A stretch of DNA of 64,000 nucleotides, taken from the NCBI GenBank assembly GCA_014381785.1, contig JACNKZ010000035.1, positions 41,361 to 105,360 of the forward strand. The letters run 5' to 3'. Below the pieces are notes generated by a model that saw nothing but the letters and a program-made list of their open reading frames with translations, did not search any database and was not told the origin of the DNA. The translations under genes and the position numbers were made by a program. Shown here piece after piece: positions 6,235 to 23,092 of this stretch. Origin of the DNA: Kiritimatiellota bacterium. Its GTDB lineage: Bacteria; Verrucomicrobiota; Kiritimatiellia; Kiritimatiellales; Tichowtungiaceae. Position 1 is the first letter of the stretch, and each line of letters starts with the position of its first letter.

Positions 6235-7266
6235 TCAGGAGGGTTGGGGAATGTTTTTTCCGGTTCCCATCAGCACACTGATGGGTTTCAGCGCCTCGAT
6301 GTTTTCGCAGACAATTTTGATGGCGGCGGCAATCGGAACGGAAAGCAGTGCGCCGGTAATTCCCCATAACCAGCCCCAGAAAATCAGTGAAAGAAGAATC
6401 ACCACCGGACTGAGATTAAGACTGTCGCCCATCAGCTTCGGCTCAATAAAACTGCCCATGGTCTGTTGGATCAAAAGCAGCAGAATCAAAACAATCACGG
6501 CGGGCCAGAAATCGGGATAGAACTGCACCAGAGCCACCAGCACGGGCGGAACGGTGGCAATCACCGAACCCACCGTAGGAATAAAATTCAGCAGGAAGGT
6601 GAAAACAGCCCAGGTGACAGGGAAATCCACCTTCATGAATAACAGCACCAGATAAACTAAAACAGCGGTCACGGCACTAATCGCCACCTTGATTGAGAGA
6701 TAGCGACTGATCTGTCCGGCAATGGAACCGGTCACCTCGGTGATTTGCTCAGCGCGGCGACCTTCAAAGGCCTGTTCGATCTTGCGCTGGCTATAGGGTT
6801 TTCCGAGCAGCATGAAAACCAGGAAAATCAGGATCATTCCCATATTGCTGACCAGGCTGACAAATGAACCGGACAGGGTGACCAGGCCGGATCCTATTTT
6901 TCCGGCCCAATCAAACTCATCAAAATAGGTCTCTGGAATGTTAAAGCGAACCATGGCGTCCGCGGCAATCTGATTGAGCTTCACCGCATACTCATCATAC
7001 TGCCCGATGAAGCCCAGTACTCGGGTTTGCACGAAATAGCCAATCAGATAGAAAAACCCGATCAGAATCAGCAGGACGGCCAGCACGGCCACACCGGTCG
7101 GCACCTTATGGCGCGCCAGAAAATTGACTACCGGGGCAAACAGATAGGACAGAAGCCAGGCGATGATCAACGGCAGAATAACCACTTGCGCGGCTTTAAG
7201 GACAAAGCCGACCAGCACCAGAGTGATGATACCGAGAAACGGAATCAAATAGCGGTTATCCTGCAT
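6235..7266 (-). CDS. AI-2E family transporter (UPF0118)
   Basis: Polytopic inner-membrane protein of 343 aa, the usual length for the AI-2 exporter-like/PerM family. There are about eight hydrophobic segments with a soluble region around residues 70-150. The family block MGSFIEPKLMGDSLNLSPVV and the closing WGWLWGITGALLSVPIAAAIK are clear. The family exports varied small molecules or ions, so the substrate cannot be inferred. A good GGAGGT ribosome-binding site precedes the ATG at 7266. Confidence 0.9.
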   Translation of the reverse strand: MQDNRYLIPFLGIITLVLVGFVLKAAQVVILPLIIAWLLSYLFAPVVNFLARHKVPTGVAVLAVLLILIGFFYLIGYFVQTRVLGFIGQYDEYAVKLNQIAADAMVRFNIPETYFDEFDWAGKIGSGLVTLSGSFVSLVSNMGMILIFLVFMLLGKPYSQRKIEQAFEGRRAEQITEVTGSIAGQISRYLSIKVAISAVTAVLVYLVLLFMKVDFPVTWAVFTFLLNFIPTVGSVIATVPPVLVALVQFYPDFWPAVIVLILLLLIQQTMGSFIEPKLMGDSLNLSPVVILLSLIFWGWLWGITGALLSVPIAAAIKIVCENIEALKPISVLMGTGKNIPQPS

Positions 7267-7318
7267 AGTTCACCTCCGGTGATAAATACGAATATCTAAA
7301 TCCGAAGCACGAAACAAA

Positions 7319-7335
7319 TTTCCAATGTTTGGAAA
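7319..7335. repeat. TTTCCAANNNTTGGAAA palindrome
   Basis: Perfect 17-bp copy (core TGT) in the gap between leuD and the AI-2E family gene, in a stretch also rich in AAATTTCG-type sequence. Confidence 0.9.
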
Positions 7336-7404
7336 ATTCTAATTTCACAAATTTAATCATTATTTCGGATTTCGAAATTAGTGTTTCGAATTTCTGAACA
7401 CAGC

Positions 7405-8019
7405 TCATCTGTGTTCAGCTTCGTAGGCTGTAATATCAGCCTCATACTGAAGCGTCAGAGCGATATCGTCCAGCCCTTCCAAAAGCTTTGTTTTCAGATC
7501 AGCGGCGATATCGAACGAATAAACCTGATCTCCTGAAGCGGCATGAAGCGTCACCGTCTGCGCGGCCAGATCCACGGTTCCCTGCACGCCCGGCTCTTTT
7601 TCCAAGGTTTGGAAAATCTCATCCACCTGAACTTCGGACAGCTCAATGGTGAGCAGACCGTTCTTGCCGCAGTTGTTGCGGAAGATATCGGCAAAGCCGG
7701 GATTCTCGTCCTGACGCGGCGCAATAATGGCCTTGAAGCCGTACTGTACGACCGCCCAGACGGCGTGCTCGCGGCTCGAACCGCACCCGCAGTTGTTGCG
7801 TGTTACCAGAATCTCGGCATTCTTCGTTTCCGGCTTGTTCAGCACGAAATCGGGATTGTCCGATCCATCATCGAAATAACGCCAGTCAGAAAACAGCGCC
7901 GCGCCGAAGCCGGTGCGTTTGATCGACTTGAGATGCTCTTTCGGAATCAGCGCATCGGTGTCGATATTTGCACGATCAACACCGGCCACGATGCCTGTGA
8001 ATTTTTCAAATTTGTCCAT
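7405..8019 (-). CDS. leuD: 3-isopropylmalate dehydratase small subunit
   Basis: Small subunit of isopropylmalate isomerase in leucine synthesis, partner of LeuC. 204 aa. Motifs are DRANIDTDALIPKEHLK near the N-terminus, the swivel-domain loop NNCGCGSSREHAVWA and FRNNCGKNGLL. It lies 2 bp downstream of leuC. A perfect TTTCCAA-GGT-TTGGAAA palindrome at 7599-7615 lies in frame and encodes the FQTLEKE segment. Confidence 0.96.
   Translation of the reverse strand: MDKFEKFTGIVAGVDRANIDTDALIPKEHLKSIKRTGFGAALFSDWRYFDDGSDNPDFVLNKPETKNAEILVTRNNCGCGSSREHAVWAVVQYGFKAIIAPRQDENPGFADIFRNNCGKNGLLTIELSEVQVDEIFQTLEKEPGVQGTVDLAAQTVTLHAASGDQVYSFDIAADLKTKLLEGLDDIALTLQYEADITAYEAEHR
7599..7615. repeat. TTTCCAANNNTTGGAAA palindrome inside leuD
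   Basis: Perfect copy (core GGT) within the leuD reading frame, giving the peptide FQTLEK. Confidence 0.9.
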
Positions 8020-8021
8020 GA

Positions 8022-9425
8022 TTAAAGCTCCTCGCGAATATCTACAAAGTGACCGGCGACCGCGGCGGCGGCGGCCATTTTCGGGCTGACCAGATGGGTG
8101 CGTCCGCCTTTGCCCTGGCGTCCTTCAAAGTTGCGGTTCGATGTCGATGCGCAGCGTTCTTTGTCGCGCAGCTTGTCGGCGTTCATGGCCAGGCACATGC
8201 TGCAGCCCGCGAAGCGCCACTCGGCACCCGCTTCAATAAAGATACGATCGAGCCGCTCTTTCTCGCCCTGATAGCGAACGGCTTCCGATCCCGGAACCAC
8301 CAGCATACGGACGCCTTCGGCGACCTTTTTGCCCTTAATGTACTCCGCGGCTTCGCGCAGGTCTTCAATACGGCCGTTGGTGCAGCTTCCGATAAATACG
8401 GTTTCGATCTCGATGTCGGTCATCTTCGTGCCCGGCTCCAGACCCATGTAGTCGAGCGCGGCGCGCACGTCGGCGGGCGAATATTCCGGCACGGCATCGA
8501 GAGCCGGCACTTCGCCGGTCACATCCACGCCCATACCGGGGCTGGTGCCCCACGTCACCTGCGGAGCCAGATCATTCACATCGATCGTCAGCTCGTGATC
8601 AAAATGCGCGCCTTCATCGGTGTAGAACTGCTTCCAGTTTTCAATGGCCTTTACAAGCTCGTCGCCTTTCGGGGCATAAACGCGGTTACCGGAGCCAACA
8701 TAGTCGAACGTGATCTGATCGGGAGCAACCAGTCCGGCGCGCGCGCCAGCTTCAATCGCCATATTGCAGATCGTCAGGCGGCCTTCCATTGAAAGCGTCT
8801 CAATGGCTTCGCCGCAAAATTCAAACGCGCAGCTAGTCCCACCGGCGGTACCGATGATGCTAATCAGCTTCAAAACCATATCCTTGGCGGTCACGCCCGG
8901 CTTCAAGGTTCCGGTAAATTCGACTTTATAGTTTTTCGGTTTTTTCTGACGCAACGTCTGCGTAGCCAGCACGTGCTCCACTTCGGAGGTGCCGATGCCG
9001 AACGCGATCGAACCGAACGCACCGTGCGTCGCGGTGTGCGAATCGCCGCAAACCACCGTCATGCCCGGTAGAACAATGCCCTGCTCCGGTCCGATGATGT
9101 GAATCACGCCTTGACGGTCGTCGCCGAGCGGGAACAGCGTCACGCTGGTTGTTGCGCAATTTTCTGTCAATGCATCAACCTGCGCCTTGGCGATCGGATC
9201 GGTAATGTTCATCCGGCTCTCGTCGGTCGGCACATTATGGTCCATCGTGGCGAACGTGCAGTCCGGGCGACGCACCTTGCGGCCCGCGAGGCGGAGGCCT
9301 TCAAAGGCCTGCGGACTGGTCACCTCATGAACCAAATGGCGGTCAATATACAGTAGCACCTCGTCGTTACCGAGTTCCTTCACGACGTGTGCATCCCAAA
9401 TCTTGTCAAACAGTGTTTTACTCAT
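8022..9425 (-). CDS. leuC: 3-isopropylmalate dehydratase large subunit
   Basis: Aconitase-type Fe-S isomerase converting 2- to 3-isopropylmalate with LeuD. 467 aa, typical. Visible blocks are [31 protein letters not shown], the cluster-ligand cysteine in [13 protein letters not shown] and the CxxC in [11 protein letters not shown], then [20 protein letters not shown]. First gene of leuCD. No leader peptide with leucine codons is evident upstream, where a repeat cassette begins about 70 bp away. Confidence 0.97.
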
Positions 9426-11457: not shown

Positions 11458-12369
11458 TTAACGCCATTGGCCCGAGGTCTTCCAGCGGGCGGAAAATACT
11501 TTGCCGGACAGCTGGGATTCCACCATTGGCCGGAAAAAGGTCTGGAGAATGCCGACGACCTCTTCAAAACCGGCCGGAGCGACATCCTCAAGTCCCTGTT
11601 TGCGGACAAAGGCCGTCCATTGGGTTTCTTTGCCGAGGGCTTCAGAAAAATTCTCTGAAAAGAAACGGACTTCGAGATCGAACAGAGTTTCGCGCTGTTC
11701 AAAGGTGGCGCCGCAGGCTTTTTGCAATTCAGCTCCGTCGATTTCTTCATGCTGAATGATGTTCCAGATGTCGTAAAAATCTTTCATCCGGCTGTTGAGC
11801 TCGCCCAGTTTGATCGTGGCCTGAAATTTTTCAGCAATTGCGGTCAGTTGGTGATAGCAGCGCAGTTTCGGGGCCGGGAAGTCCAGCAGGGTGGGTACGG
11901 TGCCCGGTATGGCGCCGGGAACCAGTGCGTCACCAAAACCAATATCAATCTGAATCGGAATTCGGCTTCGTTCGAGAAAAGCATTTATGAGAATTCGGAC
12001 GCCCTCATAGTCGGCGTCTTCTTTGATGCGCCCGACTCGAATGCTTTCGCTATCAAACTCAATTCCGTCTTCTTCGACCTCGGCTTCGCAAACTTGTTTG
12101 GCGATGGCTACCAGATTTTCCAGAGAGTTTTCAGTAAAGCCGAGCAGGTCAATGTCCATGGTCGTCCGGCGTTCGTAGTCCGGTTCCCAGACCATGAAAA
12201 GCAGAGCCCCTTTGAGGACGAATTTTTCGGAATGCTCCGATTTTGACAGCCGGTACAGAAAGCGTTCCATGCCGTAGAGTCGCAGCAGGTCGTTGGTTGG
12301 CTTTTTGGATTCACTGGCTTTGTTCTGGAGGCGTGCTTTGACGGATGCGGCTATGTTGGCAGGACTCAT
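11458..12369 (-). CDS. AbiEii-type nucleotidyltransferase toxin
   Basis: Toxin of a type IV toxin-antitoxin/abortive infection pair. 303 aa. The family's nucleotidyltransferase region is visible: FVLKGALLFMVW (about residues 50-61), then RTTMDIDLLGF (about 69-79) with the DxD metal-binding pair, and later RIPIQIDIGFGDALVPG with a further acidic residue and LRCYHQLTAIAEKFQA. It overlaps the antitoxin gene by 4 bp (ATGA-type). The family transfers nucleotides to RNA (shown for tRNA in mycobacterial relatives). The C-terminal residues (ARWKTSGQWR) run into repeat-rich DNA, so the end may be altered. Confidence 0.88.
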   Translation of the reverse strand: MSPANIAASVKARLQNKASESKKPTNDLLRLYGMERFLYRLSKSEHSEKFVLKGALLFMVWEPDYERRTTMDIDLLGFTENSLENLVAIAKQVCEAEVEEDGIEFDSESIRVGRIKEDADYEGVRILINAFLERSRIPIQIDIGFGDALVPGAIPGTVPTLLDFPAPKLRCYHQLTAIAEKFQATIKLGELNSRMKDFYDIWNIIQHEEIDGAELQKACGATFEQRETLFDLEVRFFSENFSEALGKETQWTAFVRKQGLEDVAPAGFEEVVGILQTFFRPMVESQLSGKVFSARWKTSGQWR

Positions 12370-12959
12370 AGGGTTGCCTCCAGATAGGGGCGCATAATGT
12401 TATCGACGCGGCAGACTTTGGCGTAGTGCATGATCTTATTTCCGTCAAAGCGGTAGCGTTCCCGGTAAAATTTCAGGGCTTCCAGAACAACATCCATTCC
12501 GATTTTGTTCCGGTATTTGAAACAGTCGGCCAGTGTTTTTTCTACGCAGTAGACTTTTACTCCGACCCCGTCCATATCACGAACCTCTATTCCTTCGGAG
12601 TAGGCCGGTTCTGAAAATTTATGGATGGAGAGAGGCGGGTATTTCATGGTTGGAGCTCTTGTATCGCGAGGGAGTGCGATAAATATCTGCCGGGGGATTT
12701 CGGTGGTGATTTCATGCAGAGACAGGGCGGATATAAGACACAGCACCGCTTTGGGGCAGCGTGTGCTAATAGCCATAAAGTCGGGCTCGCTGATAGGAGG
12801 GAGATCGGCGAGCCGGTAGACTCCGCGGGCAATGCGTTCGACAAAGCCTTTTTCGTAAAGATTATAGAGCATGTAGCGGCTCATGCCTGCATTCAGCGCA
12901 TCCCTCATGCGCAGTTGTCCGCCGTGCTCTGAGAACAGCGTTTTGATTTTATCGTTCAT
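12366..12959 (-). CDS. AbiEi-type antitoxin, winged-helix transcriptional regulator
   Basis: Antitoxin of the AbiE pair. The N-terminal winged helix (about residues 1-60, RDALNAGMSRYMLYNLYEKG then FVERIARGVYRL) is the AbiEi_4/AbiEi_1 signature, followed by ALSLHEITTEIPRQIFIALP and VKVYCVEKTLADCFKYRNKIG. The Met at 12959 gives 197 aa starting directly with the DNA-binding domain; the reading from 13043 adds 28 poorly conserved residues crossing the promoter. Known AbiEi proteins repress their own operon, which fits the paired sites just upstream. Confidence 0.88.
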   Translation of the reverse strand: MNDKIKTLFSEHGGQLRMRDALNAGMSRYMLYNLYEKGFVERIARGVYRLADLPPISEPDFMAISTRCPKAVLCLISALSLHEITTEIPRQIFIALPRDTRAPTMKYPPLSIHKFSEPAYSEGIEVRDMDGVGVKVYCVEKTLADCFKYRNKIGMDVVLEALKFYRERYRFDGNKIMHYAKVCRVDNIMRPYLEATL

Positions 12960-12961
12960 AA

Positions 12962-13021
12962 GACAAAATGTCCTCATTTGTTTATAAGTGGATACATAAT
13001 GTCTTGAGCGGTTTAAGGCAA
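12962..13021 (-). promoter_or_regulatory. Putative abiE promoter with two operator-like sites
   Basis: On the minus strand, TTGCCT (13016-13021) and TATGTA (12993-12998) are 17 bp apart, a plausible sigma-70-like pair. Two similar 11-bp sites, GACAAAATGTC (12962-12972) and TACATAATGTC (12993-13003), match at 9 positions. One covers the -10 element and one lies just before the antitoxin ATG. Autorepression is an inference from the family. Confidence 0.5.
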
Positions 13022-13043
13022 CATTTTTCTGCAATGCGTTCAT

Positions 13044-13494: not shown

Positions 13495-13571
13495 GCCCCG
13501 GTAGCTCAGCTGGACAGAGCAACGGATTCCTAATCCGTAGGTCGTAGGTTCAAATCCTATCCGGGGCACCA
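13495..13571 (+). tRNA. tRNA-Arg (CCU anticodon)
   Basis: Full cloverleaf: acceptor GCCCCGG pairs with CCGGGGC (13561-13567), D-arm GCTC...GAGC, anticodon stem CGGAT/ATCCG around loop TCCTAA (anticodon CCT at 13529-13531), T-arm with GGTTCAAATCC, and an encoded CCA. Its 3' 48 bp are the attachment site of the downstream integrative element and are duplicated at 19947-19994. Confidence 0.96.
13524..13571. other. attL-type site: 3' half of tRNA-Arg
   Basis: The 48 bp from the anticodon stem through CCA are identical to 19947-19994. Flanking bases differ on both sides, which defines the core. A tRNA 3' end is the classic target of tyrosine recombinases. Confidence 0.93.
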
Positions 13572-14307
13572 TCTAAAACCCTAATGAAACGTGCGTTTCA
13601 GTCAATAAACACAAGGGTTTGCTTTAAATCCTGTCTTTCGGGGCGTGCTGTTTCGTTCTGTGCCGTTCCGCTATAGAATAGACAAGTTAAGTCCACCTTA
13701 AGCCACGAAGATTTCAGTTAAGCCACAAATAAGCCACGGATTCAAGACGTGCAACGGGTCAGGCGGTGCCGGGTTCGTGTCTCTGCGGCCTGTTCTGTTC
13801 GTTCTGGAAGGGATTAAAAGCGGCGGTCAGTGCATACCCCCCCCTAGGGTTCAACGGCATAGGGCGTTACTATCTGACCGGATGCCGAAAGGGGGTTTGT
13901 CGATCTGGATATTATTCGGGAACATTCCCTACCCCCCCCTTCGGAAATAGGCCGGGGGGTCAGTGAGGGGGTGCAGGGGGACGCGGGTTCTGTGCGGTGA
14001 TGGTATCTAGACCTTCAGACAAGTTTTAGAAATTCGGGTTCATGCAAGGCAGGGTCTTGCCTAGACTAAAATAAACAGAAGGGGTTTAAACCTGTGGGGC
14101 TTCCCCACCCTGAATTTCCGGCTGTATGCGCCCGCGCGCGCGCGTATATGTCACTTATCAATCTCTTTTTAGGGACTCTAAAAACTACTCCCTCGCGCGC
14201 GTAGCTCAATTTCTCGGTTTTTAGAGTGTAAGTAAATTCAGGCTGAAGGGCTGTTTAGTTGCAAACCCCTTTTCAGTTCTGTAGCTTTATCCAAAAAAAG
14301 GGGCGGT
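13572..14307. other. Non-coding left end of the integrative element
   Basis: 736 bp without a convincing gene. Contains poly-C/poly-G runs (around 13835 and 13930-13980), an AAGGCA/TGCCTT-type hairpin near 14046-14062, an alternating CG tract at 14132-14143 and the 11-bp inverted repeat at 14175-14227. It could hold a replication origin or control region; nothing proves this. Confidence 0.5.
14175..14227. repeat. Perfect 11-bp inverted repeat upstream of the cargo gene
   Basis: ACTCTAAAAAC (14175-14185) and GTTTTTAGAGT (14217-14227) with a 31-bp loop containing CTCGCGCGCG. It lies 80 bp before the start of the PD-(D/E)XK-like gene. Confidence 0.75.
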
Positions 14308-15705
14308 ATGGACATTAAATTCAACAAGCTCGTTGGAACAAAAAAAACCGATTTCGATTTGCTCGTTAGTGAAAAGGTTATTTTACTTAGATCGGCAAGA
14401 CTCATTCCTCTAATCAATCCGGGGAAAGAAGAGGCTCTGACCTCAATATTTCTATCTTCACTCATCCTTATTGATGAATTTAAAAAAGATATATTTAGCA
14501 ATCTCGGGCTGCCTGCCGGGGGACAGCTGTACGTCTATACAGAAATTGTATTTCCCAATACAGACAACCTTCGCCTAGATGGACTAATACTGATTGTTTC
14601 AGGCGGGGTAATAAAAAGCGCCGCGATCTTGGAAGTGAAAAACGGAAACTCCACCTTAAATAAAGACCAGATTAGTAGTTATCTGAAGATAGCCAAATCC
14701 TTACAGATTCCGAAGCTAATCACTATTTCAAACGAGTTTGTGTCGGAGCCAACACAGAGCCCCCTGAAGAAGATTTTTGTCCCAAAAAATATAGACCTGT
14801 ATCATTTGTCTTGGCAGTTCATCCGAACCCTTGCCCGCATTCGGCTCTTTGACAATGATACGAATATTGCCGATGAAGATCAGGTTAGAATTATGAACGA
14901 GGTGGTTCTCTATTTAGAAAACGAAAAGTCAGGAGTTGGAAAACTTGGATTCTCTCAAATGAAGCCGGGTTGGAAAGCAATCGCCGAAAAAGTCACAAGC
15001 CAAGCGACAATAACAAAGAGTGATCGGGAGCTGACCGAAACCATTGAAAGTTGGATTCAGGAGGAAAGAGACATTGCTTTAAAACTGAGTTGTAGCCTTG
15101 GGACTCTGGTCAGAACAGATGCCAGAAAATTCAAGGGAGACATGCAAGCTCGCATTGATAATGACACCGAGATCTTCCTAAAAAATAAAACCCTCTCTTC
15201 GACGTTAAGCATACAGTCTGCGGTCTCAGATATTGAGATCAATGCAAACTTCACCCATAAAACTGTCGAGATGTCTGTCGCCTTGCTTCCGCCTCAGGAT
15301 AAAACACCACGGGGGCAGCTTGGTTGGATAAAAACGCAGGTAGAAAATAAACAGCTAAAAAAACGGCTAGCTGAACACCCCGAAACCCCATCCATTCTGC
15401 GAGAGCTTTTCGTAGAGTTATCATTTAAAAACGCTCGCACAAAATACCGATTTCCTTACTGCGAACTTGAAGAACAAGCGCAAGCAATCAAAGGACGTGA
15501 GATTAAAAGCGTCTCGATCATTAATGTGAAATCATTCGGAAAACATTTTGCCGCTCCCGTGAAATTTGTTGAATTAATTGAAGTTATGCTTCCGCGTTTC
15601 TATACAGATATTGCTCAGTATCTAAGGAACTGGATTCCGCCTGCACCACAGATGCCCGCGCCTAGCACAGAGGACAGCGCCCCAGTGATTGAAGACCCAG
15701 AATAG
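14308..15705 (+). CDS. Cargo protein with PD-(D/E)XK-like nuclease motif, unknown family
   Basis: 465 aa, not matched to a named family. Around residues 90-115 it reads LRLDGLILIVSGGVIKSAAI then LEVKNGNSTLNKDQISSYLK. The D in a hydrophobic strand and the E-x-K after a second strand are the spacing of a PD-(D/E)XK nuclease core, with a Q in the following helix as in several restriction-type members. The remainder is mixed alpha/beta with a long helical middle and a Pro-rich tail. It is monocistronic, preceded by GGGGCGG. It is AT-rich compared with the rest of the element and flanked by GAAGGGCTGTTT...TTGCAAAC direct repeats, so it looks like exchangeable cargo. An anti-phage role is only an inference from position and fold. 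Confidence 0.65.
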   Translation: MDIKFNKLVGTKKTDFDLLVSEKVILLRSARLIPLINPGKEEALTSIFLSSLILIDEFKKDIFSNLGLPAGGQLYVYTEIVFPNTDNLRLDGLILIVSGGVIKSAAILEVKNGNSTLNKDQISSYLKIAKSLQIPKLITISNEFVSEPTQSPLKKIFVPKNIDLYHLSWQFIRTLARIRLFDNDTNIADEDQVRIMNEVVLYLENEKSGVGKLGFSQMKPGWKAIAEKVTSQATITKSDRELTETIESWIQEERDIALKLSCSLGTLVRTDARKFKGDMQARIDNDTEIFLKNKTLSSTLSIQSAVSDIEINANFTHKTVEMSVALLPPQDKTPRGQLGWIKTQVENKQLKKRLAEHPETPSILRELFVELSFKNARTKYRFPYCELEEQAQAIKGREIKSVSIINVKSFGKHFAAPVKFVELIEVMLPRFYTDIAQYLRNWIPPAPQMPAPSTEDSAPVIEDPE

Positions 15706-15747
15706 CGAAAAGGAAAAAAACCGAAGAACCTTAAGACTGGTATAAGG

Positions 15748-15799
15748 GTTTGCATTTGCAAACAGTAGAAGGGCTGTTTCTCTATTTGCATTTGCAAAC
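15748..15799. repeat. Tandem GTTTGCATTTGCAAAC near-palindromes
   Basis: Copies at 15748-15763 and 15784-15799 (first base A). The second contains the last codons and stop of the polymerase gene. The segment GAAGGGCTGTTT between them (15768-15779) recurs at 14246-14257, again followed by TTGCAAAC. Confidence 0.75.
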
Positions 15800-16942
15800 A
15801 ACGCCCCCCGCTCCAAAGGTTTCGACTTTCACGCTCAAAGGCTGTTTAATTCGTTCGGCTTCGGCTTCCATGATCTGCCCGATCTCAAAGGCCTGTTCCG
15901 GTGTTCCGATTACATAAACGGCATCATGTACCGGGAAGCAGAGTTTCCAATGTTTGGAAGTTTCCAGTTCAATGATTTTTAAACAGGCGGCGTTCAGAAC
16001 ATCGGCAACGGTGCCTTGTATCTGCCAAGACAAGACCTGTCCACGGTGAACTCGTGCGCCCCTGTCCGCTTCAACTTTGCGCCCGGTCAGCGTGTTGGTG
16101 AATCTGCGCTGTTTGCCGTGCGGTGTTCCGGCAGTCCAAAGTTTTTCTTTGTAGGCGGTCAGGGCTTCGGCGTATGGCATGAACTCTTTTTCTGCGGGCG
16201 GGCATTGCCAAAAGCTCAAAGCCTTCAGACTGTCCGGGAAGTAGGCAAGCTGATTGATCTTTCGCTTTGCGCTGTCCCGGTCGATTCCTAGCAGGTCGGC
16301 GGCGGTCTGGTAGGGGTCGGCGGTGAAGCTGTATCCGATAGCCTTCTGAATCAGGGTTGGTTCTGCGGCTTTGTAGTCGGCATCAATAAGCACCTGCCCC
16401 GGCTGAAGTCCGGCGCAAAGCTTTTCTGTTCGCTTGTCTTCGCCGTGCCCCTGAACGTGCGGCTGTCCGGATGAAACCCGTCCGGTTTTTAAGACGTTCC
16501 ACGAAGGGCGGCAGGCGGGGGCATTGCCATAAACAAACGTCCGGCTGTAAAGAAGCCTTGCCAGTTCGCGGGCATCGGCGGGGGCGGTGTCTATCAGCTT
16601 GCGGCTTGGTTCATCGTTCATGAGTTCGCGCAGGCTGTAGCGGCGCAGGCGTGTAGCTTCTTTGCCGTTCACAATCGCTTTACCGATCTCGACTTCACAA
16701 AGCACCCCTGAAAGAGAATCCAGAACGGTTTTGAGGCGTGAAGGATTCCTGCACCCGGCGGCGGCAAGTTCGGGATAGTCGGCGGTTATCGGCTGACACA
16801 ATCCAAGGTTTTTTCTTTCCAAGGGTTGGAAGGCGCAAAGATAAAAACTCAAAGCACCGTTGTTTAACTGGTTTCTGTATCGCTTGCGAACGTAGTTTTC
16901 CAGTTTAGCGGCCTGCTCAAAATCAAAGGCTTGCGGTTTCAT
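15782..16942 (-). CDS. Minimal family A DNA polymerase
   Basis: 386 aa covering only a palm/fingers-type core. Motif A is LIDADYKAAEPTLIQKA (catalytic Asp about 189, compare DYSQIELR). Motif B is reduced to DSAKRKINQLAYF (about 223-235), the block WQIQGTVADVLNAACLKI (about 306-323) matches the QGTAADI region of PolA enzymes, and motif C is CFPVHDAVYV (about 335-344, metal-binding H-D). No 5' nuclease or 3'-5' exonuclease domain precedes it. It is the last gene of the element's operon, overlapping the zinc-finger gene by 20 bp, with GGGGAG before the ATG. It probably helps copy or repair the element's DNA. Two TTCCAA palindromes (15944-15960, 16816-16832) lie in its frame. Confidence 0.82.
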   Translation of the reverse strand: MKPQAFDFEQAAKLENYVRKRYRNQLNNGALSFYLCAFQPLERKNLGLCQPITADYPELAAAGCRNPSRLKTVLDSLSGVLCEVEIGKAIVNGKEATRLRRYSLRELMNDEPSRKLIDTAPADARELARLLYSRTFVYGNAPACRPSWNVLKTGRVSSGQPHVQGHGEDKRTEKLCAGLQPGQVLIDADYKAAEPTLIQKAIGYSFTADPYQTAADLLGIDRDSAKRKINQLAYFPDSLKALSFWQCPPAEKEFMPYAEALTAYKEKLWTAGTPHGKQRRFTNTLTGRKVEADRGARVHRGQVLSWQIQGTVADVLNAACLKIIELETSKHWKLCFPVHDAVYVIGTPEQAFEIGQIMEAEAERIKQPLSVKVETFGAGGVVCKCK

Positions 16943-17414
16943 GGACTCCCCTTTTGCCTTTTCGGGCTTTGAGTTCTTCTATCGCTTCAGCTTCGGCGCA
17001 TGAAATAAACGGCTTTCCTTTGCGCAACGTTCCGCAGAAGTAGCAGGCTTGCGCGGTCAGTCCCTTCGGGGTCTTATAAAACTCCGTTTCTGTCATTCGG
17101 TCACATACCGGGCACCATGCCTTCAGCTGCACGCCCAAGCGGTGAAACCGTGAACCCCTGAAAACCTTTTCGGATAGCAGAAGCCCGGCAAGGTCTCCGT
17201 TTATCATATTGCCCCAAGCGGTGACGGCCTGCCGCTGTAGGATTCGCTTTTCTTTATGCGTGAACGTGATTCCTTCCGGCGGCACAAGATAGGCGCGGAA
17301 ACCTTCTTGTTTTACGATCTTCGCTTGAATGATTTTCCCGGTCAGTGTCTCGATCTCGACAAGGGCGCGGACGTTTCCGGCATCGGTCAGGGGTTTGACT
17401 TTAAGCAGGTTCAC
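16923..17414 (-). CDS. Zinc-finger protein of the integrative element
   Basis: Starting at GTG 17414 gives 163 aa. A strong GGGGGG ribosome-binding site precedes it and its GTGA overlaps the upstream stop by 4 bp; the ATG at 17450 would overlap by 40 bp and is less likely. The N-terminal half (LLKVKPLTDAGNVRALVEIE, AKIVKQEGFRAYLVPP) has an SpoVG-like feel but is not certain. The C-terminal half has two CxxC pairs (CPVCDRMTETEFYKT...ACYFCG), a likely zinc ribbon. Followed directly by the polymerase gene, so it may act in DNA binding or replication. Confidence 0.7.
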   Translation of the reverse strand: MNLLKVKPLTDAGNVRALVEIETLTGKIIQAKIVKQEGFRAYLVPPEGITFTHKEKRILQRQAVTAWGNMINGDLAGLLLSEKVFRGSRFHRLGVQLKAWCPVCDRMTETEFYKTPKGLTAQACYFCGTLRKGKPFISCAEAEAIEELKARKGKRGVHETASL

Positions 17415-17869
17415 TTTGCACCCCCCTCGATAACTTTTATGTCCGGCCATAACGGGATGTTTATTTCCTCAAAGCTCGAACAGGTGCAAACGGCGCAGGG
17501 AGTAGAACATTTACAAGCGGACACGGGCGGGGGAGAAGCGGGGGGCGGCCTTTTCTTTGGCTTCTTGACCAATGAGTAACCCTGAAGGTCTAGCAGGCTT
17601 TCCCGTGCCGTAAACAGGCCTGTGAGTTCGTCGCAAGTCGCATTGAACTTTTTCAGCCAGTCGCGCAGGTCTTTGGCCTGTTCGTTTGCCGTCCGGCGGG
17701 CAAGCTCTTTGACGGCCTGTGCCAGTTGCGAATAGTAAGAATATTCGTATTCGACGGTTTCAATGCCCTTGCGGGTTTTGCGCTTCGGTTTCGTGTGGTC
17801 AAACAAAACATAATTGTTCGTGTCCAGAATCCCGATTGAATAGCTTCCTGCGGTGCATAGGGTTTTCAT
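17411..17869 (-). CDS. Hypothetical protein of the integrative element
   Basis: 152 aa, family not recognised. The N-terminus (SYSIGILDTNNYVLFDHTKP) is followed by a helical middle and a Pro/Cys-rich tail with CKCSTPCAVCTC, which could bind metal. ATGA-type overlap with the AlpA-like gene and GTGA overlap with the next gene show it belongs to one operon. A GGGGG ribosome-binding site precedes the ATG. Confidence 0.7.
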   Translation of the reverse strand: MKTLCTAGSYSIGILDTNNYVLFDHTKPKRKTRKGIETVEYEYSYYSQLAQAVKELARRTANEQAKDLRDWLKKFNATCDELTGLFTARESLLDLQGYSLVKKPKKRPPPASPPPVSACKCSTPCAVCTCSSFEEINIPLWPDIKVIEGGAK

Positions 17870-18138
17870 TACGCAACCCCCCGCTGTGCAAGAAGGGCTT
17901 CCACCTGTTCAGCAGGATAACGAACAGTCCGGGGTGTAATCTTGACGGGATGCAAAAGCTTCCCATCATATCTTTTGATTGAGCCGCTATGCAGGCAAAG
18001 AATATCTGCAACCTGCTTCCGTGTGAGTAATCGCGGCTTGCCCTCTGCGGGCTGTTTGATTGCGGAAAGAATCCGCTTCTTCTCTTCGGGTGTGGTGTCG
18101 CTCAAAACTAAAGTTGAGCCTGCTTCTGTGATGTTCAT
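17869..18138 (-). CDS. AlpA/MerR-like helix-turn-helix regulator (candidate excisionase)
   Basis: 89 aa from the ATG at 18138, which has GGGAG 7 bp upstream; another ATG at 18150 adds 4 residues. The segment RLLTRKQVADILCLHSGSIK plus RYDGKLLHPVKITPRTVRYPAEQVEALL is the usual short winged-HTH of AlpA/Xis-type proteins. It is the first gene of the operon and divergent in sequence from the integrase, with the regulatory region in between. Probable roles are excision control or operon regulation. Confidence 0.82.
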   Translation of the reverse strand: MNITEAGSTLVLSDTTPEEKKRILSAIKQPAEGKPRLLTRKQVADILCLHSGSIKRYDGKLLHPVKITPRTVRYPAEQVEALLAQRGVA

Positions 18139-18187
18139 GACTGCTCCCATTTAAGGTTTTATGGTTAAACGGGACTGCGCCCCGTGT

Positions 18188-18261
18188 TCCAAACCATTCG
18201 GAACAGTCACTTAATATATACACAAATTTACCTACGTCTACAAGCTTATTATGCGCATAAT
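18188..18261. promoter_or_regulatory. Regulatory region with palindromes before the AlpA-like gene
   Basis: A perfect 14-bp palindrome ATTATGCGCATAAT (18248-18261) and the imperfect GTTCC...GGAAC element (18188-18206, a relative of the TTCCAA palindrome) flank an AT-rich stretch. That stretch has a possible -10 (TATATT on the minus strand). Confidence 0.45.
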
Positions 18262-18365
18262 GCGCACAACGGCACATAAGCCAATGTTTGCAGGGGTTTC
18301 GTGATGCAAAATAAATTTCTTTAAATTTATTAAATCGCGCCTTCCAGCGCAATCTAAGCAACGTT

Positions 18366-19814
18366 TCAGCTCATATCCGCCATGCCGATCAGTTCGGCTT
18401 TTACCTGTTTCCAGTTTTTGGCGGTCATTCCTTGAAGCTTTTCGAGAATCCACGGCGGCACCGTCCGGGCGGTCGGTTCGGGTTCGTTCAGAGTCAGCAC
18501 CCCCGCAGTCCGGCGGGCGGTCTCTTCGTTTACGTGCGTATAGTGTGCGGTCATTGCCGGGTTGCTGTGCCCTATCACGTTCTGAATGACGGCTTGCGGA
18601 GTTCCGGCGGCGGCGTGCAATGAAACCCATGTATGGCGCAGGCTATGAAAACCAACTTCAACAACGGCGCGTTTGCAGGTCGGCTTTGCGCCTTTCTTCC
18701 CGCCCTCTTCCCATGCCTTCAGCGCGGCTTCGTAGGCTTCTTTTCCGGTGCCTTCTTTGACGGTCTGAATCCCGCAGGCTTTGAAGTGTTCCTGAATCTC
18801 GTTTGTAATATCTCCCCGGCGTGTATAAGAGCCTTTGCTGTTCTGGTGCGTGTAGCTTGCGGCGTAGTCCGGCAGAACATACCCTTTGCGTTTGGTCTTT
18901 GGAGTTTCGGAAAGCTTGGCAGTCAGGGCGGCGGGAATACCGATCAGAACAGGCTTGCCGTTCTTCGCGGTCTTGTTCGGCACCCGGCGAATCAGTCCAC
19001 GGTCTAAATCGACTTCTCCCCAAGTCAGGGTGCAACAATCCCCCAAGCGCAGGCCTGTGAAGGTGCCGATACAAAGCAGGGTTTGCAGGTCGCCCATTGC
19101 GGCTTCCAGAATCTCTTTGAGTTCGGCAAGGGTCAGTTCCCGGCGGCTGTTCGTTTTAAGATTCTTGCGGCGTATCTTTTCAAACGGGTTTGCTTTCAGT
19201 CCGGCGGTATCCTGTAGCACCCGGCAGAACAGCTTTAAAAAGCCGATATGCTTGTTGAAGGTGTTAGGGCTTGCCGTTCCCCCGTTCAGGGTCGCGGCGT
19301 AGTCTTGCGCGTGTTTCGGGGTAATATCGCGCAGGGCTTGCGGCTTCGGGTCTTGTGCAGAAAGCCACTTTTCAAAGCGTTGCCAGTGTCCGGCATAATC
19401 GCGCAGGGTATCGTCTCCGGTGTCGGGGCGGTCAGGGCTTTGCAGATACGTTTCCCAAGCTTCGGTAATCGGCAGAACCGGGGCGGCTTCTTCAATGGCC
19501 TGTTCCGTTTCTGTTTTGGCTTGTGCATAGGCGGCGGTCAAAGATTGAAGCTGTGCTTCCCGATTTCCTGCCCGCAGGGGGGCGGTCAGTCGCTTGCGTT
19601 CGGCTTCGGCTTTCCGCAGGTCGGTGATTGGTTTCCCGTCCGTCCCGGTCAGGGCGTGCCGTTGCCGTTTGCCTTCGATGGTGTATTGAATCCAGAAAAC
19701 CCCCGGCGTTTTAGAATCAAAGCGGTATTCCTGCCCGTCTTTGCTTCGTTTGTACAGTCTCCCGGTACCGCGTGCGCTTCTGGTCTTTGCTTTTGACTTG
19801 TCAGCCTTTGCCAT
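18366..19814 (-). CDS. Tyrosine recombinase (integrase)
   Basis: 482 aa. The catalytic residues are recognisable: Arg in GTFTGLRLGDCCTL, the HxxR box in FHSLRHTWVSLHAAAG, His in VIGHSNPAMTAHYTHV and the nucleophile Tyr in the same block. The N-terminus contains an SAM-like core-binding domain (about 120-230) and an AP2-like arm-binding region (YRFDSKTPGVFWIQY). AGGGGG precedes the ATG. It lies 130 bp from the right attachment site and presumably catalyses integration into the tRNA-Arg 3' end. Confidence 0.95.
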   Translation of the reverse strand: MAKADKSKAKTRSARGTGRLYKRSKDGQEYRFDSKTPGVFWIQYTIEGKRQRHALTGTDGKPITDLRKAEAERKRLTAPLRAGNREAQLQSLTAAYAQAKTETEQAIEEAAPVLPITEAWETYLQSPDRPDTGDDTLRDYAGHWQRFEKWLSAQDPKPQALRDITPKHAQDYAATLNGGTASPNTFNKHIGFLKLFCRVLQDTAGLKANPFEKIRRKNLKTNSRRELTLAELKEILEAAMGDLQTLLCIGTFTGLRLGDCCTLTWGEVDLDRGLIRRVPNKTAKNGKPVLIGIPAALTAKLSETPKTKRKGYVLPDYAASYTHQNSKGSYTRRGDITNEIQEHFKACGIQTVKEGTGKEAYEAALKAWEEGGKKGAKPTCKRAVVEVGFHSLRHTWVSLHAAAGTPQAVIQNVIGHSNPAMTAHYTHVNEETARRTAGVLTLNEPEPTARTVPPWILEKLQGMTAKNWKQVKAELIGMADMS

Positions 19815-19946
19815 GATGAACCCCCTTGTTTGTATCTGCTCCGAAGCGTTCCCGAAAAGCAGAGAATAAACAAGTTAAATCCACCTTAAGCCACGAAGGT
19901 TTTCACCATAACCCTATGAATAAAGGCTAAAGTCTGTTTTTAAAAT

Positions 19947-19994
19947 GGATTCCTAATCCGTAGGTCGTAGGTTCAAATCCTATCCGGGGCACCA
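19947..19994. other. attR-type site: duplicated tRNA-Arg 3' half
   Basis: 48 bp identical to 13524-13571. There is no 5' half, so it is not a second tRNA gene. Confidence 0.93.
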
Positions 19995-20014: not shown

Positions 20015-22096
20015 CTACCCTTTTGCGGGGCGGGCCTTTTTCTTTTCGGACTTTTGACGGTCGGCGGAAGGCAGGCGCAAGTCCATCAGATCGCCCTGGG
20101 TGGAGAGGATCAGCAGGCGGGTTTCGTCGCCAATATGCACCGGATACGGAAGAACACGCATCTGCAGCATCACTTGCACCTGGTTGGCGGTCAGGGTTAA
20201 ATTTTTATAAACGGGGTTGAGCACGAATTTACAGCCTTCTTTCCATCCGGAACAGCCGTAAGCCGTTTTGCCTTTGATGACTTCTTTTCCGCACCGCGGA
20301 CAGGCCCCGACGCGGTTCAAGTCGAGCTGACCGGTGCGGCCGGTTTCGATGACACCGCGGATGTAGTCGCTGATGCCGCCCATGAAGTCGGCATCGTTCA
20401 GTTCGGAGCGCTCAATCTGTTTGAGCTTTTCTTCCCATTCGCCGGTCATTTCCGGCGATTTCAGGAGCGGGTCCTGAATCAGCGCGATCAGGCAGCGGCC
20501 CATATCGGTGGCGCGGATCTGTTTTTTCTCGCGCCGGATGTAATTGCGGCGCAACAGCGTTTCAATAATGGCGGCGCGGGTGGCGGGTGTGCCGATGCCG
20601 CGTTCCTTTAAGGCTTCGCGCAGCGAGTCGTCGTCGACCCATTTTCCGGCGGCTTCCATGGCGCCGAGCAGGGAGTTTTCGCTAAAGGCCTGCGGCGGCT
20701 TGGTTTTGCCCTCGCGCAAATCCGGCTCGTGGGGGCCTGCTTCTCCCTTCTGAAAATCGGGCAGTTCTTGATCGTCGTCCTTCTTCTTTTTCTTCGGGAA
20801 AAGAGCGGTCCAGCCGGGTTCAATAATCTGGGTGCCTTTGGCTTGAAATTCGACTTCGGCGGAAACGCCGTCAACGGTGGTGATATTTTTGACGCATTCC
20901 GGATAGAAGGCGGCGATGAACTGAGTGACCACCGCGCTGTAGACGATCTGTTCGTTCCCGCCGAGATTCCCCGGCAGGATACCGGTGGGGATAATGGCAT
21001 GATGATCGGTCACTTTTTTGTCGTCGATGATGCGCTTGGTGAATGGCAGGTCCGCTAGATTGAGATGCGCGATCTGCTCGCCGCGGATTTTTTCCAACCC
21101 TTGGAAAATTTTAGGAATGCGCGGCTGCATATCTTTATTGAGGTAGCGCGAATCGGTTCGTGGATAGGTGACGAGCTTGGATTCGTAGAGAGTTTGGGTG
21201 GCGGCCAATGTGTCGGCGGCGGAAAGGCCGTGGGCTTTATTGACTTCGCGCTGCAGGGTGGTGAGGTCAAACAGCTGCGGCGGCTGTTCGGTTTTCTTTT
21301 TACCGCCGACCCCGGTGATCTCAAACGGCTGGCCGGTGATTTTCTCCAACAGCGGTTGGGCATTCTCTAGAGTCTGGAAACGGTCGCCGGTGTATTTAAA
21401 GGTGACGTCGCGATACTGAGTGGTCAGCTCCCAGAACGGCTTGGCGCGGAACTGGTCGATTTCGTCGTCGCGCTGAACAATCATGGCGAGCACAGGCGTC
21501 TGCACCCGGCCGACGCTCCAGAGAACACGGTCGTCGCCGCCGCCAATACGGCCGTGGCGGACGGTATGGTAGCGGGTGGCGTTGAGTCCGACGATCCAGT
21601 CGGATTCACTGCGGCAGCGCGCGGCGGCATAGAGCGCGTCGTATTCGTGGCCGTCTTTGAGGTTTTTAAAGGCCTCTTCGATGGCGTCGGGCGTGAGCGA
21701 GTTGAGCCAGAGGCGGCGGATCGGTTTTTCTTCGCAATTCGATAGAGCAAGGATGTAGCGGAAGATGAGCTCCCCTTCCCGCCCGGCATCCGTCGCGCAG
21801 ACAATTTCTTCGGCTTCCTCACAGAGCCGTTTGATCACCCCGAACTGTTCGTCGACCCCGCGGTTGCTGATGAGCTTGAGCCTAAATTCATCCGGCACAA
21901 ACGGCAGGGTGTCGAGCGACCAGCGCTGGAGCGCGGGATCGTATTCGCCCGGCTCTTGAAGCGTCACCAGATGCCCAAACGCCCAGGTAATGGCGCAACC
22001 GCGCCCTTCAATATAGCCGTTTTTTTTGTCGGTGATTTTGAGCACCTTGGCGATATCTCGGGCGACCGACGGCTTTTCTGTGATGACAACTTTCAT
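20015..22096 (-). CDS. topB: DNA topoisomerase III
   Basis: Type IA topoisomerase that decatenates and relaxes DNA by single-strand passage. From the ATG at 22096 the protein starts MKVVITEKPSVARDIAKVL, the standard TOPRIM start (693 aa). The upstream Met at 22147 adds residues from repeat DNA. Other marks are CATDAGREGELIFRYI (TOPRIM DxD region), SVGRVQTPVLAMIV, the catalytic Tyr in SKLVTYPRTDSRYL, and a C-terminal CPRCGKEV...YGCSGWKEGC zinc-ribbon-like segment. An in-frame TTTCCAA-CCC-TTGGAAA palindrome lies at 21091-21107. Confidence 0.95.
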   Translation of the reverse strand: MKVVITEKPSVARDIAKVLKITDKKNGYIEGRGCAITWAFGHLVTLQEPGEYDPALQRWSLDTLPFVPDEFRLKLISNRGVDEQFGVIKRLCEEAEEIVCATDAGREGELIFRYILALSNCEEKPIRRLWLNSLTPDAIEEAFKNLKDGHEYDALYAAARCRSESDWIVGLNATRYHTVRHGRIGGGDDRVLWSVGRVQTPVLAMIVQRDDEIDQFRAKPFWELTTQYRDVTFKYTGDRFQTLENAQPLLEKITGQPFEITGVGGKKKTEQPPQLFDLTTLQREVNKAHGLSAADTLAATQTLYESKLVTYPRTDSRYLNKDMQPRIPKIFQGLEKIRGEQIAHLNLADLPFTKRIIDDKKVTDHHAIIPTGILPGNLGGNEQIVYSAVVTQFIAAFYPECVKNITTVDGVSAEVEFQAKGTQIIEPGWTALFPKKKKKDDDQELPDFQKGEAGPHEPDLREGKTKPPQAFSENSLLGAMEAAGKWVDDDSLREALKERGIGTPATRAAIIETLLRRNYIRREKKQIRATDMGRCLIALIQDPLLKSPEMTGEWEEKLKQIERSELNDADFMGGISDYIRGVIETGRTGQLDLNRVGACPRCGKEVIKGKTAYGCSGWKEGCKFVLNPVYKNLTLTANQVQVMLQMRVLPYPVHIGDETRLLILSTQGDLMDLRLPSADRQKSEKKKARPAKG

Positions 22097-22642
22097 AGAT
22101 GAAGGCTCATTGTATTGAGCCGTTCTCTTCAAGAACACCCCAAACATCTATTTTTTGACAGGATTACAGGATAAGAACTAAACCACTAATCCACACTAAT
22201 CGGGATATGGGACTGAATAAAACAAAACGACCGAAAACAACGGGAAAAACACAAGTTCGCTTGTGTTCTGCCGCGGGCTTTCGGTCAATGTTCCGTCTCA
22301 GCGGAACAGCCGCCCCGCGGCGGCCTGTTTTCTTCTTTTCTCGTCCTGCGCCCACGCTTACAGCGTGGCAAGCTTTCGTGGCGAATTGCCTCCCCATCCC
22401 GTTAATCCTGTTTATCCCGTCAAAATATATTCCAGAGATGTTTTTCTTTTTAGTACTGACTTGAAAACTGAACGCCCTCAAACACCCGTGGTGGACCGAA
22501 CCATTGGAAAAGTCAATGAAAGGTTGCCTGTCCGCGGCAGGAAGAGTAAAAATCGAGCCGTTAGGTGGAACGGTTGCATAAAAACATAAAGATGTCCGTT
22601 CCAGTTGAGATGATGAATCACACCAGAAGGAGATGATCAGAG
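22097..22642. repeat. Repeat cassette between topB and the AAEMK-repeat gene
   Basis: Inverted arms TTTTGACAGGATTACAGGAT (22153-22172) and, in reverse, TTTTGACGGGATAAACAGG (about 22406-22425) enclose about 230 bp. That interior holds several GC-rich hairpins (GTTCCG...CGGAAC near 22290, CCGCGG near 22320, ACGCTTACAGCGT near 22363). A short reading frame inside looks like translated repeat, not a gene. Confidence 0.65.
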
Positions 22643-23092
22643 ATGAAGAAACTACTGCTACTTATTGCCGGAATGCTTATTTTTGCCGGAACCGCTATGG
22701 CTGACTGCGGCTCATGCGAAGGCGATGCCGAAGAAGCTAAAGAAAAAGCTGCTTGTGAATTAAAAACCGCCGCAGAGAAAGCCGAATGTGACATGGAAGC
22801 GGCTGAAATGAAAGCGGCCGAAATGAAAGCGGCTGAAATGAAAGCTGCCGAAATGAAGGCTGCCGGCGAAATAAAAGCGGCCGAAATGAAAGCGGCCGGC
22901 GAAATGAAAGCGGCTGAAATGAAGGCTTCCAGCGAAGTGAAGGCTGCCGAAATGAAAGCGGCTGAAAAACAAGAGGCCGCTGAGAAGAAAATGGAAGCTC
23001 AGAAAAAAATGATGGAAGAAAGCACAGACAAGGCGTCCGAGCAGGCTCAGGAAAAGCAGAAGAAATGGTGGAAATTCTGGGGCGGCGAATAA
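22643..23092 (+). CDS. Secreted AAEMK-repeat helical protein
   Basis: 149 aa. A clear signal peptide (MKKLLLLIAGMLIFAGTAMA) is followed by DCGSCEGD, then from about residue 50 an array of roughly ten AAEMK or AGE-M/I-K pentads and variants. A Lys/Glu/Gln-rich helix and the aromatic tail WWKFWGGE close it. The repeats predict a single long charged helix or coiled coil in the periplasm; the Trp-rich end may contact membrane. Function unknown, though apolipoprotein- or LEA-like and envelope-spacer roles are possible. AGAAGGAGATGATC ribosome-binding region; a strong terminator follows. Pentad number is likely to vary between strains. Confidence 0.75.
   Translation: MKKLLLLIAGMLIFAGTAMADCGSCEGDAEEAKEKAACELKTAAEKAECDMEAAEMKAAEMKAAEMKAAEMKAAGEIKAAEMKAAGEMKAAEMKASSEVKAAEMKAAEKQEAAEKKMEAQKKMMEESTDKASEQAQEKQKKWWKFWGGE

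Follow-up and report, generated by a model that had tools for sequence, protein, structure and literature searches.

Pipolins are integrating, self-synthesising elements equipped with a family B DNA polymerase, while PICI and P4-type satellites combine an integrase, an AlpA-type regulator and one replication gene within a few kilobases. Family A polymerases are represented on mobile elements by the PolA-SSB primases (CcPol-MP), found on SCCmec and other islands of Bacillota (Bebel 2020 PMC7581432; Rice 2023 PMC10061031), and by the TV-Pol family, minimal cores for which a primase/polymerase role was predicted from non-homologous displacement (Iyer 2008 PMC2579912) and whose named hosts include Verrucomicrobia and planctomycetes (Iyer, Abhiman and Aravind 2008 PMC2579912). 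One TV-Pol, from Gemmata, has a Cys domain in place of the thumb (Iyer 2008 PMC2579912). Small elements that carry a polymerase thus have precedents in print. In the literature searched we found no prior description of a Kiritimatiellia island with a family A polymerase, and the parts of Rice 2023 (PMC10061031) covered mention neither Kiritimatiellia nor Verrucomicrobia nor a winged helix.

The window, i.e. the whole analysed stretch of 64,000 nucleotides, contains at 13521-19994 a 6.4-kb island inserted in a tRNA-Arg(CCT) gene (table 1). It has the features of a tRNA-targeting island: att repeats with a restored tRNA gene, an integrase and a directionality factor. The att pair is 51 nt long with one mismatch and therefore includes 48 nt identical in a row, the 48-bp repeat first described; a second repeat pair (13675-13714 and 19863-19902) is 93% identical. 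The two-plus-one layout of arm-type-like sites, of which about 0.1 per island are expected by chance, recurs at L104, L105, L108 and L110. The tyrosine integrase, the AlpA-like gene and the operon of overlapping adjacent frames that ends in the polymerase were all found as predicted, and none of the six island proteins matched helicase, primase, structural or transfer genes in Pfam, PHROG, PADLOC or NCBIfam, again in agreement with the prediction, whose inventory was nevertheless incomplete: it had missed a sixth gene, of 465 aa, on the plus strand.

Among the genomes of the genus (13 of 14 with a match), a duplicate 3' part of the tRNA occurs only in the window's own genome and beside the integrase of G005. 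The neighbouring topoisomerase gene could not serve to trace the empty site by synteny, as in relatives it lies off the contig with the matching tRNA, and our evidence is confined to the lack of a second 3' tRNA part. In the single-contig genome G009 the two genes do share a contig but are far apart. No origin was found in the island. Exact 9-base repeats in 13572-14307 and 8-base repeats in 18151-18366 revealed no iteron array, RNA structure in 14060-14310, considered as a primer or origin, was not significant (z -1.3), and the tRNA was the sole Rfam match on the island.

Table 1. Features of the tRNA-Arg island, in window coordinates.
Feature	Position	Strand	Evidence
tRNA-Arg, anticodon CCT, intact; target gene at left end	13495..13571	+	ARAGORN; Rfam RF00005 73.1 bits
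Left att copy, 51 nt, within tRNA gene	13521..13571	+	50/51 identical to right copy
Mostly non-coding segment shared with primase-type sister island L104	13574..14142		73-83% DNA identity, two blocks
Two arm-type-like integrase sites, tRNA side, 20 nt apart	13698..13728	+	core TTAAGCCACGA, second with 1 mismatch
465-aa gene, probable cargo	14308..15705	+	PD-(D/E)XK nuclease-like by motif
386-aa proposed replication protein: winged helix plus core of a family A polymerase	15782..16942	-	PF00476 6.6e-7; phrog_17 7.8e-11
175-aa protein directly upstream of polymerase	16923..17450	-	two CxxC pairs
152-aa protein with C-terminal Cys cluster	17411..17869	-	weak phrog_154 replication initiation 2.2e-3
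AlpA-like 93-aa regulator/excisionase	17869..18150	-	phrog_66 excisionase 7.8e-8
482-aa tyrosine integrase	18366..19814	-	PF00589 4.2e-17; phrog_1 1e-44
Single arm-type-like site, integrase side	19886..19896	+	
Right att copy, 3' part of tRNA	19944..19994 (G000:C8:61304-61354)	+	direct repeat

The 386-aa protein is a genuine polymerase core of family A and has no exonuclease domains. Its AF2 model (pLDDT 88.4) matches Taq Pol I in Foldseek (E 3.7e-13), and VIA structure alignments place it on Pol theta (Z 20.3, 260 aligned, 3.3 A) and KlenTaq (Z 20.0, 258 aligned, 3.3 A), so that the comparison with PolA structures proposed with the original prediction came out in its favour. The predicted lack of exonuclease domains is borne out by the length of the protein, by PF00476 as its only domain match, by the fold, where most VIA alignments of the core begin at about residue 115, and by the profile. 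In hhalign profile-profile comparison the family scores better against the Pol I of the host (98.6%, E 1.3e-15) than against four TV-Pol candidates labelled by motifs and context (85%, E 6e-6). Residues R155, D189, K226, Y234, Q309, G310, T311, H339 and D340 are kept in all 12 copies compared (one of them cut by a contig end). The claim of motifs A, B and C accordingly stands as regards the catalytic aspartates D189 and D340, and needs qualification for motif B, which is present yet diverged: K226 and Y234 are invariant, the position that we take, by spacing, to be Phe762 of Pol I is Asn in 10/12, and the fingers RxxxK (R222/K226 in the window) retains its R in nine copies and its K in twelve. 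DNA polymerase chemistry is predicted from the invariant catalytic residues. The host retains its own full-length Pol I, and the island polymerase is therefore an extra copy.

Modelled alone, the N-terminal domain is a winged helix (pLDDT 87.7). Its best VIA matches include 4pql (Z 8.4, 90 aligned, 3.2 A), an entry titled 'Structure of initiator', 4pt7 (Z 8.0, 89 aligned, 3.3 A), and a 'Rep-DNA complex', 5kbj (Z 7.5, 84 aligned, 2.9 A); general transcription factors fit equally well (TFIIE, VIA Z 8.0). Foldseek returned no match at 1e-3 for this domain, its best 50 including one initiator entry (4pql, rank 10) and otherwise mostly transcription regulators; by sequence, the nearest proteins are GntR/FadR regulators (E 0.0022). 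According to the model, 46 residues separate the last strand of the winged helix (101) from motif 1 (148), against about 112 in a canonical Pol I (L090, with the domain from 156 and the family match from 268), and there appears to be no room for a bi-helical thumb.

The polymerases form a coherent family. Of the 12 copies compared, 11 come from the class (Kiritimatiellia-type), where 10 of 345 genomes carry them, and the remaining one from a Planctomycetota MAG. The search for related islands was thus successful and the suspected element family exists, with members at tRNA-Thr, tRNA-Arg, tRNA-Met and tRNA-Leu genes; the integrases of L017 and L020 are indicated by weak tblastn matches, their ORFs being masked by antisense frames. 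Single-protein scans of genome contigs and viral contigs yielded no polymerase relative, nor did an alignment scan of the viral contigs, and plasmid and phage records gave weak Pol I-type matches only. Several candidates were discarded. The frame in G168:C313, considered as an N-terminal-only relative, reads from its sequence as a GntR-type regulator; frames of 500-600 aa in G541, G545, G562 and G518 resemble an ordinary Pol I in their matches (confirmed by Pfam for G545); and no frame of at least 120 aa in Microcystis phage LMM01 beats E 0.63 against the family profile.

The polymerase had been regarded as an unusual choice for so small an island, but it sits in a replication slot where sister islands hold primases or other initiators. 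We examined 21 neighbourhoods with the same integrase type and without the polymerase, in a first set of 11 (the ten best non-polymerase neighbours by integrase E-value plus G016) and a second of 10 (three skipped in the first set and seven weaker), still weaker integrase matches being left out. A recognised replication gene is present in 13/21 (9/11 in the first set, 4/10 in the second) and in all seven neighbourhoods with two att ends, while eight of the 21 have none that we recognised. PrimPol-type, DnaG/DnaB-type, O-like or DnaC-like genes occur in place of the polymerase, primase-like proteins hold the slot in L104, L109, L113, L139 and L141, and several of the alternative modules bring a helicase. 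The nearest sister island, L104, shares with the window an integrase (76%) and the Cys protein (68%), and its DNA homology reaches the polymerase start codon and ends there, exactly where a primase-like protein begins (phrog_2597 DNA primase, 1.3e-9); both the 465-aa gene and the polymerase are missing. Since a 68% identical Cys protein adjoins a primase-like gene, the 175-aa protein is not a dedicated partner of the polymerase, which weakens the idea of an MP-type, polymerase-specific companion. It would be 12 aa shorter if its start matches that in L104. Of 146 genomes, only G005 and that of the window contain the 152-aa protein. The polymerase and the integrase have discordant histories, the G005 integrase standing at 78% and its polymerase at 29%; the L026 and L015 polymerases stand at 46% and 45%. 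The comparison shows that the polymerase is one of several exchangeable replication modules on one tRNA-targeting chassis. Its exchange with primases, initiators and loaders makes it most likely the replication protein of the island; as these alternatives differ in kind, the slot is silent on the step that the polymerase performs.

With CcPol-MP the island shares a small exonuclease-poor family A polymerase, integration, an operon with small proteins, a primase slot and a comparable distance between the two catalytic aspartates (D169/D324 in CcPol). It differs in having a winged helix where CcPol has exonuclease remnants, in apparently lacking room for a thumb, which is short in CcPol, and in the tyrosine integrase, tRNA genes and Verrucomicrobiota-type hosts of its family. 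The Cys protein, found also beside a primase-like gene, is a further difference. No D5/COG3378 or DUF927 helicase was detected in the operon (six proteins, four libraries), and the Pfam families listed (25 of 26) for 75 ORFs from the loci of ten other family members and the window cargo include no helicase. No OB-fold partner was recognised in the island either: the 152- and 175-aa neighbours match no SSB family in the four libraries, and the latter has no significant PDB match. The likeness to TV-Pol lies in a minimal core without nuclease domains, the mobile setting, integrase neighbours and the fingers RxxxK, whereas the bi-helical thumb seems absent from the model. The profile scored higher against Pol I than against the four TV-Pol candidates. 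The Gemmata TV-Pol may be the nearest precedent. Like pipolins, the island integrates and carries its own DNA polymerase, which is however of family A, not B, by profile and fold; it resembles PICI and P4-type satellites in its integrase, AlpA-type regulator, single replication gene and small size, but its replication gene is a polymerase core and no packaging or capsid-remodelling gene was found.

We consider it probable that the island replicates by means of a minimal polymerase of its own, of family A and with N-terminal origin recognition, on a chassis of exchangeable modules. It would excise as a circle through the integrase and the AlpA-like factor, the winged helix would recognise the element's origin, the palm and fingers core would start or extend DNA synthesis there, and the host helicase and replisome would supply the remaining steps. 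The 465-aa gene would be a separate cargo, probably a nuclease serving defence. The polymerase most likely works like CcPol or TV-Pol, yet without two tested features of those families, the thumb and the helicase partner. A more far-reaching proposal, about which we are rather doubtful, is that of a new class of replication proteins, in which a winged helix like that of plasmid Rep proteins replaces the thumb on a family A core, so that one 386-aa chain could recognise the origin and begin synthesis with no dedicated primase or helicase, and could pass between islands as a single gene that stands in for PrimPol and DnaG/DnaB modules.

It is quite possible, if somewhat short of probable, that the polymerase is no starter, and that it extends an RNA primer (an origin-processed transcript, as in ColE1) or fills gaps before the host primosome takes over. 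Family A polymerases normally extend primers, and the steric-gate Glu (E194), kept in 11/12 copies, marks a dNTP user, which counts in the same direction. RNase HI genes lie near 2/12 family members (L023 and L026), although the window island has no RNase H. The modelled helix before motif A (168-176) equals in length helix 684-692 of E. coli Pol I, given by Bebel 2020 (PMC7581432), and lacks the shortening of CcPol. Against this reading, the turn preceding it has 3 residues fewer than its counterpart in the Pol I alignment, and the five primase-like slot holders point to priming. From the original idea of host priming we retain the transcript as a possible primer, with the RNase HI genes in its favour, whereas priming on tRNA found no support here.

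The same prediction considered repair of the excised circle, and a polymerase that repairs or completes the circle or the empty site, with no part in replication, strikes us as improbable. Host family A polymerases are repair enzymes and some family loci adjoin nuclease-type cargo (ERCC4, HNH); on the other hand, the host already has a full-length Pol I, primases, initiators and loaders replace the gene in the same chassis, and a core apparently devoid of a thumb and lacking exonucleases would be poorly equipped for repair. Slightly less likely still, in our view, is a polymerase carried as cargo, the partner of the 465-aa protein in a defence system. A weak PADLOC match to RTasPolA (1.9e-4), restriction-type cargo at other family loci (type I methyltransferase, REase_II) and the joint absence of both genes from L104 would fit such a role. 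However, no reverse transcriptase family, which DRT systems require, was matched among the island proteins (Pfam, PHROG, PADLOC, NCBIfam), the polymerase shares its operon with the AlpA-like and Cys proteins, and across the family it accompanies many different cargos. The 465-aa gene runs in the opposite direction, and homologues of it in G011 and G127 have no polymerase with them. Its product displays, by our reading, an E / D-G / ExK signature kept in two homologues, with no match in Pfam, PHROGs, PADLOC, NCBIfam or PDB.

If the island does copy itself with its polymerase, as we favour, self-copying islands of the family A type, described among the mostly serine-recombinase, helicase-linked elements of Bacillota, would also include islands that target tRNA genes in a little-studied class of bacteria and whose polymerase is built differently (a winged helix and, by the model, no thumb). 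Within one genus, close island backbones share a start codon that opens the polymerase in one case and a primase-like protein in another. This natural swap makes possible a direct test of which functions a replication module has to provide and of whether the core of a Pol I-type enzyme may start DNA synthesis by itself.

Once relatives are included, the family A identity of the 386-aa polymerase of the tRNA-Arg island is unambiguous. As a single sequence the protein gives a modest match to PF00476 (6.6e-7, under the curated cut-off), and a profile incorporating its relatives reaches 7e-15 against solved structures (Taq) and 98.6%, 1.3e-15 against the host Pol I, to which this polymerase is additional. 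Its structure model (pLDDT 88.4) matches Pol theta and KlenTaq with a Z of 20. The hairpin Arg155, Asp189, Lys226, Tyr234, Gln309-Gly310-Thr311 and His339-Asp340 are invariant in 12/12 copies, and the dNTP-selecting Glu194 is kept in 11 of the 12; the catalytic residues are thus conserved, and the polymerase fold is predicted by the model. Homology to Pol I begins at residue 148, and the structural matches of the core mostly begin near residue 115. Residues 1-112, modelled alone, form a winged helix, so that the model leaves no space for an exonuclease or a two-helix thumb. The original prediction of a PolA-type core without exonuclease domains is thus borne out by the fold match, the catalytic residues and the late start of the Pol I homology. 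Among the best structural matches of the winged helix are the entries 'Structure of initiator' and 'Rep-DNA complex' (the latter presumably the staphylococcal plasmid RepA), level with TFIIE; a Foldseek search with this domain returned nothing below 1e-3. We read it as a putative DNA-binding domain, and only infer that it binds an origin.

The genome bearing the island comprises 2.2 Mb in 88 contigs. An att-flanked tRNA-Arg island with an integrase and an AlpA-like operon ending in the polymerase had been proposed, and the 51-nt repeat and four overlapping frames recovered by ORF analysis (AlpA-like, 152-aa, 175-aa Cys-rich and polymerase genes) agree with this. The proposed gene list was correct for the five minus-strand genes and left out a 465-aa plus-strand gene, the cargo, whose homologues in two other genomes (66% in G011, 29% in G127) both keep the motif. 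A topoisomerase gene adjoins the right att; none was found beside the matching tRNA in genus relatives.

Coordinates of features in the window and in related loci
Feature	Location	Coordinates	Strand	Remarks
AbiEi/AbiEii-type toxin-antitoxin pair	window	11458-13043		just upstream of tRNA, outside island; PF08843 7.2e-44, PADLOC AbiEi 8.3e-74
Intact tRNA-Arg(CCT)	window	13495-13571		
465-aa PD-(D/E)XK-like protein gene (cargo)	window	14308-15705	+	no match in Pfam, PHROGs, PADLOC, NCBIfam or PDB
TTTGCATTTGCAAACA, polymerase 3' end	window	15749-15800		two identical 16-bp copies 36 nt apart
Integrase, AlpA-like, 152-aa, 175-aa Cys-rich and polymerase genes	window	between att copies	-	
att copy	window	19944-19994		last 51 nt of tRNA-Arg(CCT), 1 mismatch
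Type IA topoisomerase gene	window	20015-22147		directly adjoins right att
149-aa protein	window	22643-23092		mostly AEMKAA repeats
Decayed island in tRNA-Met	L025 (genome G015)	6794-8415		1.6-kb remnant; integrase fragment and polymerase tail
RNase HI gene	L023	5983-6840		near polymerase
RNase HI gene	L026	9910-10314		near polymerase
TOPRIM-like protein	L017	7121-7831		directly upstream of polymerase region; motif reading, no Pfam match
TOPRIM-like protein	L018	7801-8898		as for L017

The polymerase family has 11 copies (one, L016, ended by a contig end) in 10 of the 345 genomes of the class; a match of any kind occurs in 134/345, mostly host Pol I. A sample of 387 genomes of the phylum gave matches too, none of them a family member outside the class. 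One further member, L026, comes from a Planctomycetota MAG. This locus also bears DnaX-like AAA, ArdC-like and resolvase-like genes, the last two by sequence reading. The window, L015 (Thr), L017 (Arg CCT), L020 (Met), L023 (Leu, with a repeat of only 17 nt) and the remnant L025 (Met) each showed both att ends at a tRNA; one end was identified in L021 (Leu) and L022, where the integrase adjoins a duplicate 3' part of tRNA-Arg. A second tRNA copy was not found in L016 and L026, though a tRNA is present in the stretch, and no tRNA was found in the L018, L019 and L024 stretches. The gene order of L022 is that of the window, with identities of 77% (integrase), 44% (AlpA), 76% (152-aa protein), 63% (Cys protein) and 32% (polymerase).

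The integrase type is commoner than the polymerase (44/146 genomes at 1e-30), and a comparison of 21 integrase neighbourhoods lacking the polymerase (profile matches in 0/21) shows that the polymerase is exchanged with replication genes across the island family. Family searches or similarity identified a replication gene in 13 of the 21. The first set (9/11) includes PrimPol/AEP-type genes in L104 (phrog_2597, 1.3e-9), L109 (phrog_21866, 2.1e-24) and L113 (phrog_2597, 8.3e-16), DnaG/Toprim-DnaB types in L107, L108 and L110 (phrog_239; 1.5e-30, 1.7e-21 and 8.5e-86) and L111 (similarity to L110), an O-like gene in L112 (8e-18) and a weakly matched DnaC-like gene in L105 (9e-4); L106 has a 366-aa protein without such an assignment behind the Cys protein, and in L114 none was recognised. 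In the second set (4/10), BLAST to the first set identified AEP-type genes in L139 and L141, a DnaC-like gene in L137 and a DnaG-DnaB-like fragment in L140. Ten proteins were scanned from the other six loci; no replication gene was recognised in L136, L138, L142, L144 and L145, while L143 has a gene resembling a clamp loader, which was left out of the count. All seven islands with two att ends (L104, L105, L108, L110, L111, L112, L137) carry a replication gene. The nearest sister, L104, resembles the window at the DNA level in the integrase (78%), the Cys gene (73%) and, from the tRNA end inwards, the first 460 bases (73%), and the long unaligned stretch, window 14143-16938, takes in the cargo gene and the polymerase gene as far as its start codon. 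L105 and L137, two islands of genome G024 with different integrases and tRNA targets, have in common a DnaC-like stretch of 205 aa at 100% identity, a sign of recent module exchange.

Conserved arm-type-like sites, TTAAGCCACGA, lie internal to att, a pair spaced by 20 nt towards the tRNA and a single site towards the integrase, against a chance expectation of about 0.1 per island by shuffling. A two-plus-one arrangement also occurs in L104, L105, L108 and L110, with single sites in L022, L106 and L107 and a different layout in L111; none was found in L015, L017, L018, L020, L021 or L112.

The integrase and the AlpA-like factor would excise the island, the winged helix would recognise the origin from which the polymerase would start synthesis, and the host would supply the helicase. 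As to the primer, the polymerase may prime de novo, as suggested by the primase-like proteins occupying the same slot in sister islands, or it may extend an RNA primer, as suggested by RNase HI genes close to the polymerase in L023 and L026. The modelled helix before motif A (168-176) also points to RNA priming, being as long as that of E. coli Pol I (684-692 as given in PMC7581432), but the turn ahead of it is 3 residues shorter than in Pol I.

PolA-type polymerases of mobile elements have already been published, namely the TV-Pols (Iyer et al., PMC2579912) and the CcPol-MP/PolA-SSB primases (PMC7581432, PMC10061031), and we predict that the island family most likely works like them. However, TV-Pols have a thumb, which the island family is predicted to lack, the primases come with a helicase, which it lacks too, and in profile comparison it is closer to Pol I than to four TV-Pol candidates; we therefore assign it to neither group. 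The displacement argument made by Iyer et al. (PMC2579912) for TV-Pols corresponds to the slot exchange seen here within one island family. The principle is known to specialists, and the winged-helix, thumb-less architecture is a variant of it; what makes the finding useful and testable is this architecture, together with the natural exchange of the polymerase for a primase-like gene.
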